34,086 nucleotides of DNA from a virus. Position 1 is the first letter of the stretch; each line of letters begins with the position of its first letter. The stretch spans positions 1 through 34,086 of the IMG/VR virus record IMGVR_UViG_3300026382_000040; one strand, given 5' to 3'. The notes below the pieces were generated by a model that made no database searches, was not told where the DNA came from, and saw nothing but the letters and a program-made list of their open reading frames with translations. The translations under genes were made by a program, and so were the position numbers. Shown piece after piece: positions 3,182 through 24,907 of the stretch.

Positions 3182-4788
3182 CAGGAGACCTCCAGAGAAA
3201 AGGAATCCAAAACAAACCTGTTCTTTGATGTGATGATAAAATAGATGTAGTCCCCACCTATTAGTTGCCTAAGAGGCTTAAAAAACACAGAAGGATTAGA
3301 CCACTTATCTGAATCCCAAACAGCAATGCCATACCTCGCAACCTTAGGCAAACTTAGAACAGCAAGGTTATATCCTGTATTTCTCCTAAACACAGACAAA
3401 AGTATTTCGGCATTGTCAATCCCTGCACCATAAAGAGAAAATCTCTTTAGTAAAACCCTTCTAAAACCTCCAGAATTAATAACCTTTGTGCTCAGTTTGT
3501 AGTAAACATCTTTGCCGTTATCTGTGTTAACATCAGCAAACTTAAAGACCGCGTTCTCTCCCCCAAGATAAACTTCATTTTCAACAACTAACGCAGAGGT
3601 TATCTTTTCCTGAGAAGCTAAAGAAGTAAAAGCTTTTCTAGTAGGAGTAAAGGTAAATCCAGAATAACCAGCAAAACCGAAGATAACATTAGCAATCGGG
3701 ATGGGAATAAGAATATAGTCGTTATCCTCTATTAAGAACTTCTGATTAATCTGTATAGGCTTTATGTCTCCGTATTCTACTATTGTTTTAAGACTGTAAA
3801 GCTGAGAGCCGTCCAGAAAATAAAGGTCTCCCAAAACGCTAACTATTTCCCTGTTTTTTGCCGAAACCCCTTTGGCTATCAAGCCAACAACAAAAGTTTC
3901 TTCAGAATTGCCAGACAGAGCATAGATTCCCCTATCCTTCCCTTCTTTAAAGACTATCAGCTTATCGTAGAGCTGGGCAATTGCTGAAATATCACTCTCA
4001 TCCTTTGAGGCAACTTTAATAAACCCCCAGCGTGAGGGGTCTCTTATCTCCGAATAATAAAGACTATCGCCTTTAGCAAGCCAAATCCTCTCTTGTCTAA
4101 ACTCTATAAAATCAGCTTTAACATCTAAAACATCTGAGCAAGAATAAATAATCCTAATCTCCGTTCCGTTATCAGGTGCAGTATCAAAGTTTAGATTAAC
4201 AGCTCCAGTATCATAGGCAACAGTTCCAGACAAGAAAGTCCCAGAAATATTGCCCTCTCCGTCGTCAACAGCCTCATACTGCGTTCCCTGAATTGTGTAT
4301 TTGACTTTTACGCTGTTAGGGCTAACTGGAACTTCAGAGGTGGAGTAAGCATACGATTTAGTAGTGCCGTTTCCAGTTCCGACTAGCTCGTCGTGGTAGA
4401 GAAAATCGTCAATAGTTCCAAAAGTAGAACCGTCCCAATACTTTAGCTTCCCTCCATCTGCAATCCAGAGCTTTCCGAGAGCAACCTGAAAATAGACATC
4501 TCTACCTTCGTGCTCTCCGATTTCTGATAAGGAAGAGCCGTCCCACTTATAGACCTTTCCATCCTTGCAGGCTACATAGAAATCGCCCTGAAACTTGGCG
4601 ATTCCTACAACTTCGGCTGGAGTATCAAAGAGCTTAATAAAACCCGGTCTAGCGACAAGTCTACCAGTATTGGAGACATAAAAATTAACGCAGGACTGAA
4701 GCTCATTATCTCTAATAAGTGCTGGGTCTTGCGTATTATTAACCCCTCTCCAGTCTCCGAAAGTTATAACCCTTGCTCTCCTATACAT
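3181..4788 (-). CDS. Tail nozzle / tail tubular protein B-like
   Basis: The 535-residue protein has the start typical of short-tail nozzle proteins: a GVNNTQDPALI segment, then ARPGFIKLF after a linker. In such proteins a Gly-Val-Asn/Asp motif and an RPG motif precede a beta-propeller-like body. The body is beta-rich throughout, with repeated short strands such as FYVACKDGKVYKWDGSSL and LWIADGGKLKYWDGSTF, which read as propeller blades. It has no signal peptide or membrane segment. The gene starts directly after the adaptor stop (TAAATG), and adaptor followed by nozzle is the usual order in podovirus-like phages. By family analogy it forms the end of the DNA ejection channel below the adaptor ring. 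Confidence 0.7.
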   Translation of the reverse strand: MYRRARVITFGDWRGVNNTQDPALIRDNELQSCVNFYVSNTGRLVARPGFIKLFDTPAEVVGIAKFQGDFYVACKDGKVYKWDGSSLSEIGEHEGRDVYFQVALGKLWIADGGKLKYWDGSTFGTIDDFLYHDELVGTGNGTTKSYAYSTSEVPVSPNSVKVKYTIQGTQYEAVDDGEGNISGTFLSGTVAYDTGAVNLNFDTAPDNGTEIRIIYSCSDVLDVKADFIEFRQERIWLAKGDSLYYSEIRDPSRWGFIKVASKDESDISAIAQLYDKLIVFKEGKDRGIYALSGNSEETFVVGLIAKGVSAKNREIVSVLGDLYFLDGSQLYSLKTIVEYGDIKPIQINQKFLIEDNDYILIPIPIANVIFGFAGYSGFTFTPTRKAFTSLASQEKITSALVVENEVYLGGENAVFKFADVNTDNGKDVYYKLSTKVINSGGFRRVLLKRFSLYGAGIDNAEILLSVFRRNTGYNLAVLSLPKVARYGIAVWDSDKWSNPSVFFKPLRQLIGGDYIYFIITSKNRFVLDSFSLEVS

Positions 4789-5352
4789 TTAAGCCTCAAA
4801 GGGAAGATTAAGAGGTATCTTGGAAAAGCCGTATCTGCTTATAAGTCTTATTAGCTTCTGCTCAAAAAGTGCCGATAAGCTCTGCTCAACAGAAGTGTTA
4901 AACTCATTCCTGTTAAGTGCAAAAAAGGCAACCATTTCAATCAAAAGGTTATTAAAGTAAGGCGGGAGGACTAAGTCATCATCTAAGCTCTTATAGTGAT
5001 GAGGATAGGCGTAATAAAGGAGAGTTAAGGGGCTAACTCCAGCTTCTATTTTATTTCCAATCAGCTTATAAGCCAATTCTCCCTGCTTTATCTGAGCTGA
5101 TGGCGAAACGGGCTTTAGCTTTTTGTCTTTCCAAAAGACTCCATCCTCTACAACAAAATCATCAGGTAAGGAATCACCAGAATTAAGAGTAGCCGTTTTG
5201 AGAAATCGGCTGAACTGCTTGTTAATACAGGTATCGGCTATGTAATCCTGAACTCTATTTAGTATCCTTAAAAGCTCGTCATCGCTATATTCTATTTTCG
5301 CCGTATCGTTTATCATTTCCCTAACTTGAATTAAGACATCGGCTACTTTCAC
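4789..5352 (-). CDS. Head-tail adaptor protein
   Basis: The 187-residue protein fits the phage adaptor family found beneath the portal. The helical N-terminus carries a pattern typical of that family: MINDTAKIEYSDDELLRILN, then a long helix, followed by LPDDF and a central beta-rich segment. The remaining helix is rich in Leu and Phe. The GTG start at 5350-5352 follows GAGG and overlaps the preceding stop (GTGA), so translation is coupled. By family knowledge it forms a ring joining the portal to the nozzle encoded next. No odd features. Confidence 0.75.
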   Translation of the reverse strand: MKVADVLIQVREMINDTAKIEYSDDELLRILNRVQDYIADTCINKQFSRFLKTATLNSGDSLPDDFVVEDGVFWKDKKLKPVSPSAQIKQGELAYKLIGNKIEAGVSPLTLLYYAYPHHYKSLDDDLVLPPYFNNLLIEMVAFFALNRNEFNTSVEQSLSALFEQKLIRLISRYGFSKIPLNLPFEA

Positions 5353-5594
5353 TTTAACCTCTTTAAGGTTTTAGCAAGGCTAGCCCTTTTGAGGAGTAAA
5401 GGAGTAACTTTTATTCTCTTCTTTTCTCCGTTAACGGTGTATTCTACGACGTCGCCTACTGCTGAGCTTAAAATCTTGTTCAGCAGGGCCATCGGTATCG
5501 GCTGATTCTCTGGTATCCCTAACTGCTTGTGAAGTGCTCCTTTCTTTATCCTTATCCTCTTGTTCCCCAATACTATCGTCTGATATTTCGCCAT
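5349..5594 (-). CDS. Small basic head-region protein (81 aa)
   Basis: This 81-residue basic protein contains KGALHKQLGIPENQPIP, a motif I know from small conserved phage proteins coded among head genes. In those, a Gly-Ala-Leu-His/Arg start is followed by an Ile-Pro and a basic tail; here the tail is KRASLAKTLKRLK. The molecular function of that family is not known to me. The ATG has an excellent GGAGGAATTAG leader. Its first 164 bases lie inside the end of the 5431-5736 gene in another frame, and its stop overlaps the adaptor start. A structural or DNA-contact role is a guess from charge and position. Confidence 0.7.
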   Translation of the reverse strand: MAKYQTIVLGNKRIRIKKGALHKQLGIPENQPIPMALLNKILSSAVGDVVEYTVNGEKKRIKVTPLLLKRASLAKTLKRLK

Positions 5595-5736
5595 CTAATT
5601 CCTCCACAGGCTTAAAGCCGAGTTTAAGGAATTCGGAAACTAAAACTTCTGGGACATCTACGATTTCTTTACCCCTTGTGTTAACACCGCAGACCATGCT
5701 TGCAGAAGCTAGATATTCAGGCTTTTTCATAAGCAT
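5431..5736 (-). CDS. Small head-region protein overlapping the next gene
   Basis: This encodes 101 residues. The first 50 or so (KKPEYLASASMVCGVNTRGK, then DVPEVLVSEFLKLGFKPVEE) look like a compact folded phage protein. The rest is charged and disordered, ending in a run of arginines. It starts at 5736 with TAATG coupling to the gene before it. The last 164 bases overlap the 81-residue gene in a different frame, so the tail composition may reflect constraint from that frame. Start is either this ATG or the second one two codons on. No function is assigned. Confidence 0.6.
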   Translation of the reverse strand: MLMKKPEYLASASMVCGVNTRGKEIVDVPEVLVSEFLKLGFKPVEELDGEISDDSIGEQEDKDKERSTSQAVRDTRESADTDGPAEQDFKLSSRRRRRIHR

Positions 5737-6023
5737 TACACATCCCCTTCAGAACAACGAAATTGCGGATTTTCCCTTAAGAACTTCCTTAAGGCGTTAT
5801 CGTCGTTCATTATTTCAAAAAACTTCTCAGGAGGAAGAGACATTAGGACATCTAGAGGGATAGAAGCCACTTTACGGGCTGTTTTCTTTTTAGAAAAACC
5901 TTTCCCCATAACCTTTTTCTCTTCGTAGTTATCCTTTACTGCATCCGTATAGTCAACCTTTTTAGCAAGGCGGAGCTCTCCGCTCCGCCTATCAAACTCA
6001 AGCAGAAAAGCCTTAGTCCTCAT
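5736..6023 (-). CDS. Unknown head-region protein (95 aa)
   Basis: This 95-residue charged protein has a basic central segment (KGFSKKKTARK) followed by SIPLDVLMSLPPEKFFEIM and a C-terminus ending in FRCSEGDV. There is no membrane segment. It sits between capsid-side genes and the adaptor, a place often used for head-completion, decoration or capsid-stabilising proteins. I do not recognise the family. A perfect 9-bp hairpin with a 5-base loop (5968-5990) lies in its N-terminal coding part. The ribosome binding site is weak, so coupling to the upstream gene, whose stop is one base away, is likely. Confidence 0.65.
   Translation of the reverse strand: MRTKAFLLEFDRRSGELRLAKKVDYTDAVKDNYEEKKVMGKGFSKKKTARKVASIPLDVLMSLPPEKFFEIMNDDNALRKFLRENPQFRCSEGDV
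5968..5990. repeat. Perfect 9-bp hairpin inside a gene
   Basis: AGGCGGAGC (5968-5976) and GCTCCGCCT (5982-5990) are exact inverted copies around a 5-base loop, inside the 5736-6023 gene. It lacks a following T-run, so it is not an ordinary terminator. It is one of a set of intragenic hairpins in this genome. Confidence 0.8.
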
Positions 6024-6024
6024 A

Positions 6025-6264
6025 CTAACCGTCCATGTTTATATAGTGCCACTTACCACCCACAAAGATATAAAGTCGCTTACCGGGAGTAGTAGAATTC
6101 GTGTCCTCAACGACCCTAATATCAAAGTCATGTGGAGGAGGGGGAGGGGGAACATAAGAAGCAAAACCTCCTCCAAAATCCCCTGAATCGTAAGCGATAA
6201 GCCCAGAAGCTACTGCATTAGGCTTGCTCTCCTTGCTATTCTGAAAAACTAAATTACTTCCCAT
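6025..6264 (-). CDS. Small protein with poly-proline (79 aa)
   Basis: This 79-residue protein follows the capsid gene. The N-terminal half is disordered (Ser/Gly-rich) and carries a run of six prolines (YVPPPPPPHDFD). The C-terminal part looks beta-stranded and ends KRLYIFVGGKWHYINMDG. The ATG is preceded by GAGGGAGAAA. Proline linkers ahead of a small beta domain are seen in phage head-decoration and fibre-anchoring proteins, which makes a capsid surface role possible. The family is not recognised. Confidence 0.65.
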   Translation of the reverse strand: MGSNLVFQNSKESKPNAVASGLIAYDSGDFGGGFASYVPPPPPPHDFDIRVVEDTNSTTPGKRLYIFVGGKWHYINMDG

Positions 6265-13325: not shown

Positions 13326-13406
13326 TAAAGAATTTATAAGGGCGTGGAGGTTTTGTGAGAAAAGGGCTCGGAAGGTGGGTTTTGTTTTCGTTAAATAGAT
13401 TTTTGG

Positions 13407-13480
13407 TATCGTAAAAAAGAAGTCTGATATAGTGAACGGTGGTCTAACTATCGTAAAAAAGAAGTCTGATATAGTAAACG
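13407..13480. repeat. Two 32-bp iteron-like direct repeats
   Basis: A 32-base unit (13407-13438) returns at 13449-13480 with one mismatch, 42 bases apart, which is four helical turns. Each unit has ACTAT/ATAGT-type ends in opposite orientation around an A-rich middle. A shortened third copy starts near 13487 (TAACTATAGCGAA). Phased repeats directly before a gene that looks like a replication initiator are typical of iteron origins. They could equally be operators of the promoter at 13500. Confidence 0.7.
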
Positions 13481-13499
13481 ATAACTTAACTATAGCGAA

Positions 13500-17490: not shown

Positions 17491-17518
17491 TGTGAAGAAA
17501 AAATATAAGGGAGTTGTT

Positions 17519-18253
17519 ATGGCTAAGACCAAAATTGACTGGTGCGATGCGGTTTGGAATCCCGCTTGGGGTTGTCTCCATAACTGCTCTTTCTGCTATG
17601 CTAAGCGGTTTGCAGGTAGGTTCTACGAGAAAGTAGCAAAGAAAAACAACCTTTCCCCCGAAGAGACGGAGAAGCTCCGTGATTTTGAACCAATCTTCCT
17701 ACCTGTAAACTACAGCAGGAAGTTTGGGAAACGAGAAAAGATAATTTTTGTCAACTCAATGTCCGACCCTGCTTTTTGGGAACAGGAGTGGATAGACAGG
17801 ATTTTTGAGAGGATAGCAAGAGAGAGAAACAGGGTTTTTCTCTTTCTAACAAAAAATCCTACAAGCTACAGGAAGTTTCCTGTTCCTCTTTCTTCTAATG
17901 TGTGGTTGGGGATAAGTGCTACTGATACCGTTTCTTTGGTAGAAAAAGCGAAGAAGCTTTTTGGGAGATATGATACTCCTCCTACTTGGAATCTTTTTGT
18001 CTCTCTTGAACCTATTCACGAAAACATTGTTACTCCTAGGGTTGTTCCGTTTCTTAAAAAGTTTGGATGGATAATCGTGGGTCCTGAAACTGGGAGCTTA
18101 AAAAGGGAGCTCCGGGAGAGTTACTCACAGAACCTCAAAAAATGGGTAAACAATTTGAAAGACTTCTGTTCCCACTTTGGAATTCCGCTTTTTACCAAGG
18201 AAGCGTGTGTAAGCTACGGAGTGAAGCTCCAGCAAGAATTCCCGCTGATGTAA
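17519..18253 (+). CDS. Phage Gp37/Gp68 family (DUF5131) radical-SAM-like protein
   Basis: The 244-residue protein starts TKIDWCDAVWNPAWGC, the N-terminus typical of phage Gp37/Gp68 (DUF5131) proteins. It then has C19-x3-C23-x2-C26 (CLHNCSFCYAKRF), the spacing of a 4Fe-4S radical-SAM cluster. Further family landmarks are FVNSMSDPAFW, VFLFLTKNPTSY, VWLGISATD, LFVSLEPIHENI and WIIVGPETGS. The substrate of this family is not known to me. The ATG at 17519 (GGGAG six bases upstream) is preferred over a GTG at 17492, because the family N-terminus begins here. It follows the folded leader and repressor switch, so its expression appears tightly controlled. Confidence 0.85.
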   Translation: MAKTKIDWCDAVWNPAWGCLHNCSFCYAKRFAGRFYEKVAKKNNLSPEETEKLRDFEPIFLPVNYSRKFGKREKIIFVNSMSDPAFWEQEWIDRIFERIARERNRVFLFLTKNPTSYRKFPVPLSSNVWLGISATDTVSLVEKAKKLFGRYDTPPTWNLFVSLEPIHENIVTPRVVPFLKKFGWIIVGPETGSLKRELRESYSQNLKKWVNNLKDFCSHFGIPLFTKEACVSYGVKLQQEFPLM

Positions 18254-19713: not shown

Positions 19714-20525
19714 TGGAAGTTAAGACTATTGAGGAAGTAAAAATTAAAGTGGCTGAGGAGATGCAGAAGAGATGGCTTGACTTGAGCCAAATCAAAGGAT
19801 GGCTGAACGGCCATAAAGGGATTCCTCAAGAGGCTCAGGAGCAGATAGCTGAGCAGATTAAGGCTCTCTTTGCTGAATATGGCCTACGTCCGGATTTAGG
19901 CCATATCGTAGTTTTGGGCGATAGGCCATATGTAACAAGAGAGGGTTTGCTCTACTATGCACGCAAAAGCGGTCAACTTCAGGGCATCAAAGTTGAGATA
20001 GTTGAGCGTCAAAAGGATTTCTGTTTAGTGAAAGCTACCGTCTTGACTAAAGACGGCGGAGAATTTGAGGCCTATGGAGATGCCTCTACGAGCAACACCA
20101 ACAGGATGGTTAGCCCTCACCTTATCAGGATGGCTGAAACGAGGGCTATAAATAGAGCTCTTAGGGAGGCCTTCCCAATAGGTTTATGTAGCTACGAGGA
20201 ACTTGGAGAGGCTGATATAGATATATCGGTAGAACCTGCTACAGGTGAACCGAATCCTACCCCTTCATCTTCCTCTTCGCCTGCTAAAGCTTCAAACGGA
20301 GGGGTTAGTAAAAAACAAATAGGTTTCATGAAGAAGCTCCTTAAAGAGGTTTTCGGAGAGAATGCAGAGGAAGAGGGCAAAAGGATGATTGCTGTTTATG
20401 GCAAATCCTCCTCAAAGGAGCTTACCTCTAAGGAGGCATCGGAGATTATTGATACGCTTAAAAAGTTAAAGGAAAATAAGGAGAAAAAGGAAGAAGGAGG
20501 AGAGCATGACTACGATTTTGAATAG
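19713..20525 (+). CDS. Putative ssDNA-binding/annealing protein
   Basis: The 270-residue protein has an N-terminal domain of about 170 residues ending in RMAETRAINRALREAF and GLCSYEELG, a signature I know from phage proteins coded among recombination genes, some thought to be single-strand annealing proteins of the Rad52-like kind. A Ser/Pro linker (about 180-200) leads to a small helical domain (KKQIGFMKKLLKEVF, then LTSKEASEIIDTL) found at the end of many such proteins. It finishes with an acidic tail, HDYDFE, like those SSB-type proteins use to recruit partners. Start is TAATG-coupled to dUTPase. The annealing role is inferred; it could also be a plain ssDNA-binding or unknown replication protein. 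Confidence 0.55.
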   Translation: MEVKTIEEVKIKVAEEMQKRWLDLSQIKGWLNGHKGIPQEAQEQIAEQIKALFAEYGLRPDLGHIVVLGDRPYVTREGLLYYARKSGQLQGIKVEIVERQKDFCLVKATVLTKDGGEFEAYGDASTSNTNRMVSPHLIRMAETRAINRALREAFPIGLCSYEELGEADIDISVEPATGEPNPTPSSSSSPAKASNGGVSKKQIGFMKKLLKEVFGENAEEEGKRMIAVYGKSSSKELTSKEASEIIDTLKKLKENKEKKEEGGEHDYDFE

Positions 20526-20591
20526 CTTGGACTAGATTTATTTTTGTAGAGAACTAAAATAATTAAGTCCATAATTCCAGCTCCTTTTCAG

Positions 20592-20640
20592 TTAGAGGTT
20601 TGGATTTCAAGGAGGGCCCCCACCCTCCTTGAACCTCTAA
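20592..20640. promoter_or_regulatory. 18-bp paired hairpin before the RAMP-like gene
   Basis: TTAGAGGTT (20592-20600) pairs with AACCTCTAA (20632-20640), and CAAGGAGGG (20608-20616) with CCCTCCTTG (20623-20631), leaving a 7-base bulge (20601-20607) and a 6-base loop. TTTTAG follows, so it can terminate transcription. CCCTCCTT is also complementary to the AAGGAGGG binding site of the next gene (about 20661-20668), so it may hide that site in an alternative fold. The remainder of the gap (20526-20673) shows no gene. Confidence 0.7.
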
Positions 20641-20673
20641 TTTTAGAACCATTAAAAACAAAGGAGGGAGACT

Positions 20674-21411
20674 ATGCAAAGTCTTATTCAAGATAGAAAA
20701 AAAGTAGTTTTGCGATTTATCAGGGATATACTTGGAGTAGCCCCAAGCTCCCCTCAAATTTACGAGAGATATCTCCTTGAAAAGCTCAATAAGGAGATAG
20801 ACAAGATAGAGCGGAAGCTGGGGAAAAAGAGTTTAAGAGAAGAGGAAAGGGCAATACTTGAGAATCAGTTAAGGAGCTTACAGGATGAGTTAGCGAATCT
20901 TCCTGAAGTCATAGAGAACACGGAGAAAGCTACTCAGTTTTACAGAGCTCCTTATGGGAAGTATGAAGTCCCAGTAATCCGAGCCCATCAAGTTCAGGGC
21001 TTTTTCAAAGAGGCGGGCAACAACTTCAAGGATGTCTTTAAAATTAAGGCTCTAAGAGACAAAATAAGCAAGTATGTCCGAGTTCAACCTATAAATATAT
21101 TCATTTACGATGAGGAAATACGAGAGGATAACCTAGTTGATGAGCCCGATGGATTCCTTGAGCGTCCCATACAAGCCATGACCCTACAAGGGCCCAGAGT
21201 GTCAATAGCGAAATCGGAGGTTATCTATTCAAGCGAAGAGAAAGGTTTTAAGCTGATAGAGTTTGAGGTAATCCTATTTAAGAATCCTCACTTTGACTTT
21301 TCGCTACTTGAAACGCTTATGAGAGAACTAGGGCCTTACGGTGGAATAGGACGATGGAGGAATGCGGGCTACGGGGCGTTTGAGGTTGTTAAAATAGAAG
21401 ATGTTAATTAA
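20674..21411 (+). CDS. RAMP-fold-like protein beside the periodic array
   Basis: The 245-residue protein opens with about 90 residues of charged helix (coiled-coil-like, about 25-80). The rest reads like a RAMP protein (the RRM-like fold of Cas5/Cas6/Cas7). VPVIRAHQVQGFFKEAGN resembles the 'I-P-G-x-x-L-K-G' helix start, LQGPRVSIAKSEVI the following strand, and LIEFEVIL a core strand. A helix then leads into a Gly-rich loop, LGPYGGIGRWRNAGYGAFEV, which looks like the RAMP signature near the C-terminus. I see no catalytic His pair typical of Cas6, so binding without cutting is more likely. The ATG follows AAAGGAGGGAGACT. The stop codon overlaps the first unit of the 433-bp array. The fold call is by eye; no known family name is claimed. 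Confidence 0.55.
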   Translation: MQSLIQDRKKVVLRFIRDILGVAPSSPQIYERYLLEKLNKEIDKIERKLGKKSLREEERAILENQLRSLQDELANLPEVIENTEKATQFYRAPYGKYEVPVIRAHQVQGFFKEAGNNFKDVFKIKALRDKISKYVRVQPINIFIYDEEIREDNLVDEPDGFLERPIQAMTLQGPRVSIAKSEVIYSSEEKGFKLIEFEVILFKNPHFDFSLLETLMRELGPYGGIGRWRNAGYGAFEVVKIEDVN

Positions 21412-21842
21412 TGGCGTTGCTATGCAAGACGCAGTAGTGGTGTAGCGGAGCAGAACGAGGCGTTGTAATGGCGTGGTAAAGTGAGGCTGGGTTTTGGTTA
21501 AGCTGGGCTTCGGTTAAGCACAGAGTGGCCGAGTAATGGCAAGGCTTCCTATGGCTTTGTGCCGGTATGGCTTTGCCGTGTATCGGTTAGGCCAAGTAGG
21601 GCGACGGCCGAGTAGAGCACGGTTCTGTCAAGCAGAGGCAAGGAGGAGCAAGGCAAACCCAAGTAAAGGCGGGGTTGGGCAAGGTTAGGGCACGGCCGAG
21701 CAGAGAACCGCTTCGGTAAAGGCGATGTCCAGCTTTTCTATGCACAGGCACAGCGGTGAACTGCTTAGCATCGGCACAGCAGAGAACTGCGTCAGCTAGG
21801 TACGGTAGTGTTTAGTGCGGGCATGGCCAAGCCTAGTTGCGT
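21410..21842 (+). repeat. Degenerate 5.2-base periodic array, non-coding
   Basis: All 433 bases can be cut by hand into 83 successive units of 5 or 6 bases. 73 of them end in GC or GT, most often as GGC, GGT, AGC or AGT (for example AAGGC, TTCGGT, TAAGC, TGGGC). Six-base units, nearly all NNNGGY, come after every 3-5 five-base units, so super-units of 21, 26 or 31 bases recur, 26 being commonest. The mean step is 5.2 bases, half a DNA turn. The region is G-rich on this strand, unlike its neighbours, and has no supported gene. It has no spacer/repeat structure of a CRISPR array. It follows the RAMP-like gene and precedes thyX. Confidence 0.85.
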
Positions 21843-21845
21843 GTT

Positions 21846-21871
21846 GGGGGGGGTCTATGCCCCCTCTTCTT
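21846..21871 (+). promoter_or_regulatory. G8/C5 hairpin in the thyX leader
   Basis: Eight G (21846-21853) and five C (21860-21864) can pair around TCTATG, followed by the T-rich TCTTCTTT. It is a small terminator-like or leader hairpin between the array and the thyX binding site. Confidence 0.55.
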
Positions 21872-21897
21872 TAAACTACCAAAAAAAGGAGGGAGTA

Positions 21898-22830
21898 ATG
21901 AAAAAGCTAAAGTATATTAAAAAACTTGGAGCGAAGAGCGTTTATCCTTATGAAAATCCACCCATCGGCAAGGTAGAACTCTGGGATTTTAGTAGGGCTA
22001 ACGAAAACGACGAGGCAAGGAAAGAGGCCGTTTGCCTTGTGGCCTCTATTAGCTATGGGAATGGATTTTGCAAAGACCCAGAGAGGTTATGGAACTTGCT
22101 TATAGAAAAGGGACATGAGAGTCCATTTGAGTTTGTAAGGGAACCTGAATTTGAGCTTAAGCAAAATTTAAGAAATACAGATTTTATGACGGACAGTAGC
22201 TTTTCTGTTTATGTTTATGGAAGAGAAACAAAGAGAATAAAAGAAGATAGACTGGAAAGAAGGAGGAGAAGAGTTGCCACCTTCAAGCTCAAGGTCCCCA
22301 TCTTTGTCGCCCGCCAAATCCAAAGGCATAGGGCTTTTAGCTATATGGAAATGAGCAGGCGATATGTAAAGGGAGAGAAGGTGAAATTTGAGTTTTGGAA
22401 GCCAAAAGATTTTTCTGAGCCCTTACTTGCTTTTCACGGTATTGCCCCACACCTAGATGAGGAAGATCAATGCGATTTGTTTGAGCACAGCGAAGCACTT
22501 TACGAATATTTACTTGAAGAAACGTTCACAAGACCCGAACAAGCCCGTGCATTTTTACCGTTAGGCCTCTATACCCAATTCTGGATGCAGGGCGACTATA
22601 AGGCTTGGCTGAATTTCTTTATCCACCGTTTACATCCAGAAGCACAGGAAGAGACCCGTTTGGTTGCTCAATCAATGTGGGAGCTCCTCAAGGAACATCA
22701 GCCTGAGATTATAGAAACGATGGCTGATTACCTTAAAAAGTGGATAAGAGACTGCAACCCGATGTTTAGAGTAGCGAGAGAGAAGAAAGCCGAGTGGTTT
22801 AGAGAAAACTTTTTAGGAGGTGAGCAATGA
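21898..22830 (+). CDS. thyX: Flavin-dependent thymidylate synthase (ThyX)
   Basis: The 310-residue enzyme makes dTMP from dUMP using FAD, NADPH and methylene-tetrahydrofolate. The ThyX signature RHR-x7-S is exact (RHRAFSYMEMS), followed by RRYVKG. The flanking QIQRHRAF and QARAFLPLGLYTQFWMQG segments and LHPEAQEETR also fit the family. It is longer than the usual 220-260 residues, with an insert between about 185 and 215. The ATG at 21898 with AAAGGAGGGAGTA is chosen; an upstream in-frame codon at 21808 would read the end of the array and the poly-G hairpin. It works with dUTPase, which supplies dUMP. Confidence 0.93.
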   Translation: MKKLKYIKKLGAKSVYPYENPPIGKVELWDFSRANENDEARKEAVCLVASISYGNGFCKDPERLWNLLIEKGHESPFEFVREPEFELKQNLRNTDFMTDSSFSVYVYGRETKRIKEDRLERRRRRVATFKLKVPIFVARQIQRHRAFSYMEMSRRYVKGEKVKFEFWKPKDFSEPLLAFHGIAPHLDEEDQCDLFEHSEALYEYLLEETFTRPEQARAFLPLGLYTQFWMQGDYKAWLNFFIHRLHPEAQEETRLVAQSMWELLKEHQPEIIETMADYLKKWIRDCNPMFRVAREKKAEWFRENFLGGEQ

Positions 22831-23830: not shown

Positions 23831-24116
23831 AGACAAAGACTTGGAAGCGATTAAAGCGTTTGAGGAGTACATTGAGGCTTTCCGTAAGCGTTTAGTTAAA
23901 TCCTCCGCCCTCCAAAAACAGGAGGGCGGTAATCACTACAAGGACTTCGTTATACAACCCATTGAGTTTATCTATAAGAACAATTTAGGCTTTTGCGAGG
24001 GGAATATAATTAAGTATGTGTGCAGGCATAGGAAAAAGAATGGAATTGAGGATTTAAGGAAGGCCAAGCATTACTTGGAGATTTTGGCTGAACTTGAATA
24101 CGGGGTGAAGTTATGA
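23817..24116 (+). CDS. DUF3310 family protein
   Basis: The 99-residue protein has the conserved core of phage DUF3310: QEGGNHYKDFVIQPIEFIYK, then GNIIKYVCRHRKKNGIEDLR, and a final helix (KAKHYLEILAELEYG). The family is common near phage nucleotide-metabolism genes, and its activity is not established to my knowledge. The ATG follows AGGAGGTAAACA. The 9-bp hairpin at 23905-23929 lies just upstream of the family core, in the linker. The N-terminal 35 residues are variable and charged. Confidence 0.82.
   Translation: MGHSKDKDLEAIKAFEEYIEAFRKRLVKSSALQKQEGGNHYKDFVIQPIEFIYKNNLGFCEGNIIKYVCRHRKKNGIEDLRKAKHYLEILAELEYGVKL
23905..23929. repeat. Perfect 9-bp GC hairpin inside the DUF3310 gene
   Basis: CCGCCCTCC (23905-23913) and GGAGGGCGG (23921-23929) are exact inverted copies around AAAAACA, inside coding sequence. 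The right arm resembles a ribosome binding site. Confidence 0.8.
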
Positions 24117-24907
24117 TTGAGAAGGTTGTTTTTGTGAGTGTGAGCGGAGGTAAGGACTCTACTCTTTGTCTTGCTCTTGCCCTTGAGGAGTATAAAGAAA
24201 CTAGTGTTCCCATTGTTGCCGTTTTTGCAGACACTAACTGGGAACACCCGTTAACTTATCAATACCTTGATGAGCTTGAGGAATTTTTTGGGATTAGAAT
24301 TTATAGAGTTGGCTATGAAGGTGGTTTACCTGCTTTACTCAAAAAACTCAAAATCTTTCCCTCCCCACGCCGACGGTTTTGCACGAGCGAGTGCAAAACC
24401 GTCCCAACTTACCGTTTTTATGAACAACTCTATTTTCACTTTCCTTTTAGGGTTGCTGAAGTCTGGTATGGACTTCGCCGAGACGAAAGTGTAGCAAGAA
24501 GGAAGATAGAAGACTGGGAGCTCCCGGCTGGTTCAAAAACTCGTTTTGGAGAGAGATTCCCCTTTGCTATCCATTTTCGCTATCCAATAAAAAACCTTAC
24601 CAAAGAGCAGGTCTTTCGGGAGCTTAAAAGAAGAGGGATACCCCTAAACCCACTCTACTTAATGGGATATAGTAGAGTGGGTTGTTATCCGTGTTTCTTG
24701 TCTCAAAAAGATATAAAACAAGTGATTTTGTCAGCTCTGAAGGGCGATGAGGTTGCTCAAGAAAGAGTTTCTCAGCTCATTTGCTGGGAAAGGGATTATG
24801 GAAAAACAGTAAACATAGATACTTCTATTCGTGTGCTTATAGAAAAAGCAAAGAGGGAATATGAACAAACATCCAAAATGCTAACCCTTCCTTTTGAGGG
24901 GGTATAA
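24113..24907 (+). CDS. PAPS-reductase-like PP-loop protein
   Basis: The 264-residue adenine-nucleotide alpha-hydrolase-fold protein has the PP-loop SGGKDS at residues 11-16 and VFADTNWEHPLTYQYL. It also has two cysteine pairs, RRRFCTSECKTVP (C90, C94) and GYSRVGCYPCFL (C191, C194), which could hold an Fe-S cluster or zinc. Such phage proteins are usually annotated as phosphoadenosine phosphosulfate reductase-like. Related PP-loop enzymes work on sulfate, on tRNA thiolation or on DNA phosphorothioation (DndC). I cannot tell which applies; no Dnd partners are coded here, so whole DNA phosphorothioation is unlikely. The ATG overlaps the DUF3310 stop. The DNA coding the two Cys motifs is folded into two perfect 13-bp hairpins. 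Confidence 0.82.
   Translation: MIEKVVFVSVSGGKDSTLCLALALEEYKETSVPIVAVFADTNWEHPLTYQYLDELEEFFGIRIYRVGYEGGLPALLKKLKIFPSPRRRFCTSECKTVPTYRFYEQLYFHFPFRVAEVWYGLRRDESVARRKIEDWELPAGSKTRFGERFPFAIHFRYPIKNLTKEQVFRELKRRGIPLNPLYLMGYSRVGCYPCFLSQKDIKQVILSALKGDEVAQERVSQLICWERDYGKTVNIDTSIRVLIEKAKREYEQTSKMLTLPFEGV
24372..24403. repeat. Perfect 13-bp hairpin over the first Cys motif
   Basis: GACGGTTTTGCAC (24372-24384) and GTGCAAAACCGTC (24391-24403) are exact inverted copies around GAGCGA. The DNA codes residues 87-97, including C90 and C94 of the PP-loop protein. Confidence 0.9.
24647..24683. repeat. Perfect 13-bp hairpin at the second Cys motif
   Basis: AACCCACTCTACT (24647-24659) and AGTAGAGTGGGTT (24671-24683) are exact inverted copies around an 11-base loop. 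The DNA codes residues 179-190, ending right before C191 of the same protein. Confidence 0.9.

Follow-up and report, generated by a model that had tools for sequence, protein, structure and literature searches.

The window, by which we mean the whole stretch of viral DNA that was analysed (34,086 nt, IMG/VR record IMGVR_UViG_3300026382_000040), belongs to a hot-spring phage and carries on its plus strand the gene for a RAMP protein of 245 residues (20674-21411), followed directly by a candidate guide array (21412-21845). The reading that we favour, with a probability of roughly 0.7, is that the two make up a system of the VIPR type, that is, a RAMP protein with array-encoded guides, one per block and each specifying a contiguous target, which represses genes of rival phages. 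VIPR (Viral Interference Programmable Repeat), reported in 2026, consists of solitary phage RAMPs and guide RNAs of alternating GGY/NN pentamers, and in that experimental work the guides recognised double-stranded DNA with a 1-nt skip and repressed rival phages (PMC13142463). The vrRNAs were expressed, bound by protein and had a structured 3' tail, while an accessory vap gene was described as typical of VIPR and not universal (PMC13142463). The sequence-only reading of the window had proposed an undescribed system. As to kind, this must be given up, as VIPR is already described, while the block-punctuated, contiguous-triplet form proposed here does not feature in the main text of that report (PMC13142463). 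It is likely a new variant of the VIPR kind, and one that may already be typed in the same report.

The gene is preceded by a ribosome-binding site, AAGGAGGGAG, and has a RecT-like gene and ThyX as its neighbours; no nuclease gene adjoins it in the window, and no vap gene was recognised next to it. The early region also encodes a PAPS-reductase-domain protein (24113-24907) and a DUF5131 (radical-SAM-like) protein (17492-18253). In sequence searches with the 245-residue protein none of the specific Cas families rose above its own cut-off, and the C-terminal YGGIGRWRNAGYGAFEV segment resembled Pfam RAMPs (E 0.009) and Csm4 (E 0.0035) at sub-threshold level. An AlphaFold2 model built from an alignment of 68 homologues reached a pLDDT of 92.8 and a pTM of 0.77. 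The PDB matches listed by Foldseek were Csm, Cmr, type VII Cas7 and Cas7-11 entries, and the second-best match in a viral library was a phage protein named 'Cas system-associated RAMP superfamily protein'. The predicted fold is of the Cas7/Csm3 RAMP type, with a coiled-coil insertion at about residues 29-74 and a C-terminal Gly-rich loop at residues 219-234, in the region of which G220, G224 and G234 were invariant across 68/68 aligned homologues. The sequence-only reading, which had ascribed a RAMP fold with such a loop to the protein and had named structure prediction and a fold search as the check, was thus borne out by both.

Fourier analysis of the array gave a spectral power of up to 18 at a period of 5.2-5.25 nt, where the median for the window is 2.5, and the array contains all of the window's strongest stretches of this periodicity. 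Segmentation with an HMM resolved it into 84 units of the form N-G-Y-N-N, each made of a G-Y separator and three variable bases. The spacing from one unit to the next is 5 nt in 66 cases and 6 nt in 17, and 94% of the units have G as their anchor base, with a pyrimidine-rich base after it. An extra G sets off about 17 blocks, mostly of three to six units, with one 6-nt step between blocks, and the unit that follows such a step nearly always begins with GG. Because the 5-nt steps are broken in this way, the array does not repeat with a simple period of 5 or 6 bases. As the cause of the 5.2-nt period, half-helical DNA phasing (10.4/2) was set aside, since this mean comes from 5- and 6-nt steps and from blocks of variable length. 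Neither did the array fit the Cas7 geometry that had been invoked for it, five paired bases and one flipped, its period being 5.15-5.25 and not 6. Apart from the array, tandem 21/42-bp repeats (TATCGTAAAAAAGAAGTCTGATATAGTAAACGATAACCTAAC) occupy 13380-13493, the gap between the oppositely oriented genome halves, and are possibly an origin or operator array.

The boundaries of the array were largely as previously described: the gene's stop codon abuts the first unit, and the end had been placed at 21842, correct to a few bases. The array is closed on the same strand by a terminator-like hairpin (21846-21866) followed by TTCTTT. This hairpin had escaped mention; it is the only structured element seen 3' of the array, and its stem recurs in the near-twin phage L001 with a different number of G. 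The strong hairpin noted ahead of the gene was found as a perfect 11-bp stem on the plus strand (20606-20633, z -3.6), which may belong to a leader or act as terminator of the preceding gene. Gene and array lie on the same strand, and the proposal that they share one message is probably right.

Phage RNA anti-CRISPRs exist, and a phage-borne solitary protein of RAMP fold adjoining a non-coding repeat RNA could be taken for a lone Cas protein whose companion, an RNA anti-CRISPR, blocks a class 1 CRISPR complex of the host. We regard this as extremely improbable, as no CRISPR-type repeat was found in the window, Rfam returned nothing above threshold over 20500-22000 (the sub-threshold matches being implausible), the specific Cas families all stayed below cut-off as mentioned above, and the grammar of the array is common to phages and prophages of very different hosts. 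Nor does the window hold the cas operon and repeat-spacer array that go with a class 1 CRISPR-Cas effector. What it does have are several features by which VIPR is recognised, namely a solitary RAMP with an RRM core and G-loop, a tandem pentanucleotide array adjoining it, and carriage by a phage or prophage with neither CRISPR array nor cas operon.

Homologues of the protein are found in the near-twin (95%), in phage G002 (53%), in Hydrogenobaculum phage 1 and in human gut phages, and a profile search placed the family at 167 viral loci as well as on 42 bacterial contigs, among which Clostridia are common. The association with arrays was surveyed at 124 homologue loci picked by protein only, a tract being counted when its periodicity exceeded the 99% point for stretches at a distance of over 2.5 kb. 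A tract with a period of 5.1-5.25 nt lay within about 1 kb of the RAMP gene in 118 of the 124, downstream in 84 and only upstream in 34, and some of the six loci that had none are contigs ending beside the gene. The sequence-only reading had paired gene and array and had named such a survey as its check, homologues regularly lacking an adjacent array being the counter-case; the pairing proved real throughout the family. In one member (L069) very regular arrays flank the RAMP gene on both sides (4005-4821 and 5520-6108), with decoded units that are self-repeating (AAAAGAACAT...), unlike those of other arrays. In the gut phage L015 a periodic tract lies 5' of the RAMP gene (4281-4800), and the following gene contains tandem repeats GCATCGTCAGCGACAGGAGACTACGG.

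The family profile also matches a protein of Escherichia phage SUSP1, whose agp039 is presumed to be Vipr from its size, fold motif and flanking arrays. The relationship is distant, with agp039 aligning to the family profile over 172 columns (hhalign E 3e-5, probability 73%) and scoring 12.8 bits in hmmsearch, and the intergenic arrays of SUSP1 read GGY-NN. Since agp039 matches the profile and the SUSP1 arrays are of this form, the window system is VIPR-like.

Comparison of close relatives was used to ask which positions of the unit are constrained. Between the window and its near-twin, 10 of the 17 array substitutions fell on the base after G, none on G itself and few on the N bases; nine of the ten stay C or T and the remaining one restores a pyrimidine. 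A second hot-spring pair agreed with this pattern, and the two pairs pooled gave 23/139 on the separator base against 17/418 on the N bases (p 5e-6), with N3 conserved as well as N1 and N2. The separator base drifts while the N bases are kept, so that in the hot-spring clade the N bases are the information and the separator is free within its class. In gut members the separator changed no faster than the N bases and N1 leaned towards purines; on account of both, the reading rule may differ there. Relative to the window, the L001 array further carries a 31-nt insertion at about window position 21501, which amounts to exactly six units and lies between short in-phase repeats, and arrays seem to gain or lose whole units through slippage or recombination.

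These data bear on the proposal that the array RNA pairs with no target and instead offers the RAMP protein a binding platform, whether structural or protective, or acts as its autoregulatory 3' UTR. An array on the gene's strand, straight after the stop and ahead of a terminator-like hairpin, is what such a role would lead one to expect. However, close relatives keep the variable bases while the separator base drifts, about a quarter of the arrays lie only upstream of the gene, decoded blocks resemble gene starts (see below), and relatives of the same architecture were shown to be guides (PMC13142463). We thus consider it very unlikely.

To decode the arrays, NNN was read from unit to unit within blocks and the separators were dropped. 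A Shine-Dalgarno sequence with ATG was present in 18 decoded blocks, against 7.9 +- 2.4 when units were shuffled and 7.7 +- 2.6 when N3 alone was permuted. Across the separator, the pairs N3|N1, N3|N2 and N3|N3 best fitted genomic distances of 1, 2 and 3 (z 5.3, 5.1 and 8.2), and this neighbour-pair signal was small across block boundaries. In one decoded block of 39 nt (L118), what reads as a ribosome-binding site precedes codons for MRCPACAN. These statistics favour a reading in which each block would encode a single contiguous target, every unit contributing three letters and no 1-nt skip occurring. That this amounts to a second VIPR code, of contiguous triplets G-H-NNN in which an extra G separates independent guides and no target base is skipped, we hold to be slightly better than an even bet.

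The competing view is that of a standard VIPR that follows the SUSP1 rule: only two bases of every unit are read, a 1-nt skip follows, and the role of the third variable base and of the extra G is purely structural. Such a code is the published one for type II VIPR, the same report allows GGY/NN 'or a related consensus' in other types (PMC13142463), and either reading advances along the target by three bases per unit. We nevertheless find it unlikely for the window, as permuting N3 alone abolished the Shine-Dalgarno-ATG enrichment, and N3 is statistically paired with N1 of the next unit and conserved like N1 and N2 in the hot-spring pairs. When N1N2 or N2N3 was taken as the pair that is read, with a skip of 0-3 nt, no convincing excess of matches appeared among local relatives and hot-spring phage genomes. 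A 21-nt target match, described next, takes in all seven of its N3 bases.

In this match, a block of the L023 array agrees with the related phage G009 at 21/21 positions from boundary to boundary, and covers the Shine-Dalgarno sequence and the ATG with which an AlpA-like gene begins, some 400 nt ahead of the G009 RAMP gene; among 2.9 million viral contigs, G009 was the sole contig to contain the 21-mer. A second match falls in the window itself, where the stretch 20587-20601 (minus strand) equals the decoded first complete block of the G007 (L020) array at 15/15 positions. It sits in the leader, 73 nt before the RAMP start codon, and is present in the RAMP leaders of both the window and its near-twin, from the metagenome of which G007 also derives; it is a possible target site of a rival system. 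When hot-spring arrays were compared with genomes, these two block matches were obtained against 0.16 expected, and two were reached in 6 of 500 shuffles. The 21-nt match carries most of the weight and the 15-nt match is weak by itself, since matches of that length arise by chance in larger sets. Both lie just upstream of RAMP genes in related phages; if they are genuine targets, such phages would be directing guides against one another's guide systems.

For the window's own array, no targets were found among viral contigs, local relatives and hot-spring phage genomes. The window pattern CGAAGAACGTCTCAAAGA had no match in viral contigs, and another pattern, which ran over a block boundary, had two contig matches of 20 nt; these lay in phages from unrelated isolates and were put down to chance. 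Some fifty gut and rumen phages with such systems showed no excess of block matches among themselves. Decoded blocks of individual members behaved likewise: that of L080 had no match, that of L112 none in its own genome or in 397 family genomes, and that of L118 four near-matches, all at ordinary gene starts and judged to be chance. A BLAST search of phage records with a 1980-nt string of decoded blocks also returned no match.

For the window system we infer that the array is transcribed and processed and that the system binds and represses; that guides are bound, DNA recognised and genes silenced is carried over from the published type II VIPR systems alone, by analogy. The RAMP protein would bind RNA from the array on the same message, probably with one subunit per 5-nt unit; it would hold the G-H or G-G-H separators, which go unread, and leave the N triplet of every unit to pair with target DNA. 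A block, bounded on either side by an extra G, would then act as one guide, matching a contiguous target of mostly 12-27 nt at three letters per unit, and the complex would settle on the start regions of rival phage genes or on their leaders, those of rival VIPR loci among them, and so repress them. Given that no nuclease lies nearby, repression by occupancy is proposed. A store of RNA guides by which DNA is recognised, as in the related VIPR (PMC13142463), fits better than the roles guessed at earlier, namely RNA protection, a decoy or a mark for packaging. If the favoured reading is correct, RNA-guided DNA recognition in phages has more than one code, the reading rule of this RAMP family has diversified, and well over a hundred arrays that lack annotation, from phages of gut, rumen and hot springs, could have their targets read by computer. 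The window system would also be a natural intermediate, with the gapped code of VIPR on one side and gapless pairing, as in CRISPR, on the other.

Amongst known systems, the backbone subunits Csm3/Cas7 of type III and type VII CRISPR-Cas are the best structural matches to the window protein and have the RAMP fold and C-terminal G-loop in common with it, albeit at TM-scores of 0.4-0.5 and an identity near 10%. In contrast to those systems, the window has no cas operon and no CRISPR repeats, and the period of its RNA would be 5.2 nt rather than 6 nt. In Hydrogenobaculum phage 1, protein ALG96927 (KP282676) is about 30% identical and is followed by an array of about 700 nt with a G-W separator (GT or GA), unlike the G-Y of the window. 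The protein is annotated as hypothetical and the adjoining array is not annotated as such; the latter (L012, 3911-4598) comprises about 130 units beside the RAMP homologue, and a small CDS called inside it (4146-4316) is probably spurious. With the type II VIPR of SUSP1 the window shares a solitary phage RAMP with a Gly-rich loop and no CRISPR array or cas operon, an adjacent non-coding array of pentamers in which G with a pyrimidine after it forms the core, an alternation of fixed and hypervariable bases, and three target bases per unit. The two differ in that SUSP1 units are GGY-NN with GG fixed, whereas those of the window clade are GH-NNN, the first G persisting only as the extra base at block boundaries, where alone the full GGY is seen. 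SUSP1 has separate vrRNAs of about 100 nt with a structured tail and the window a single 84-unit array after the gene, and while SUSP1 guides are read with a 1-nt skip, the reading in the window clade appears to be contiguous.
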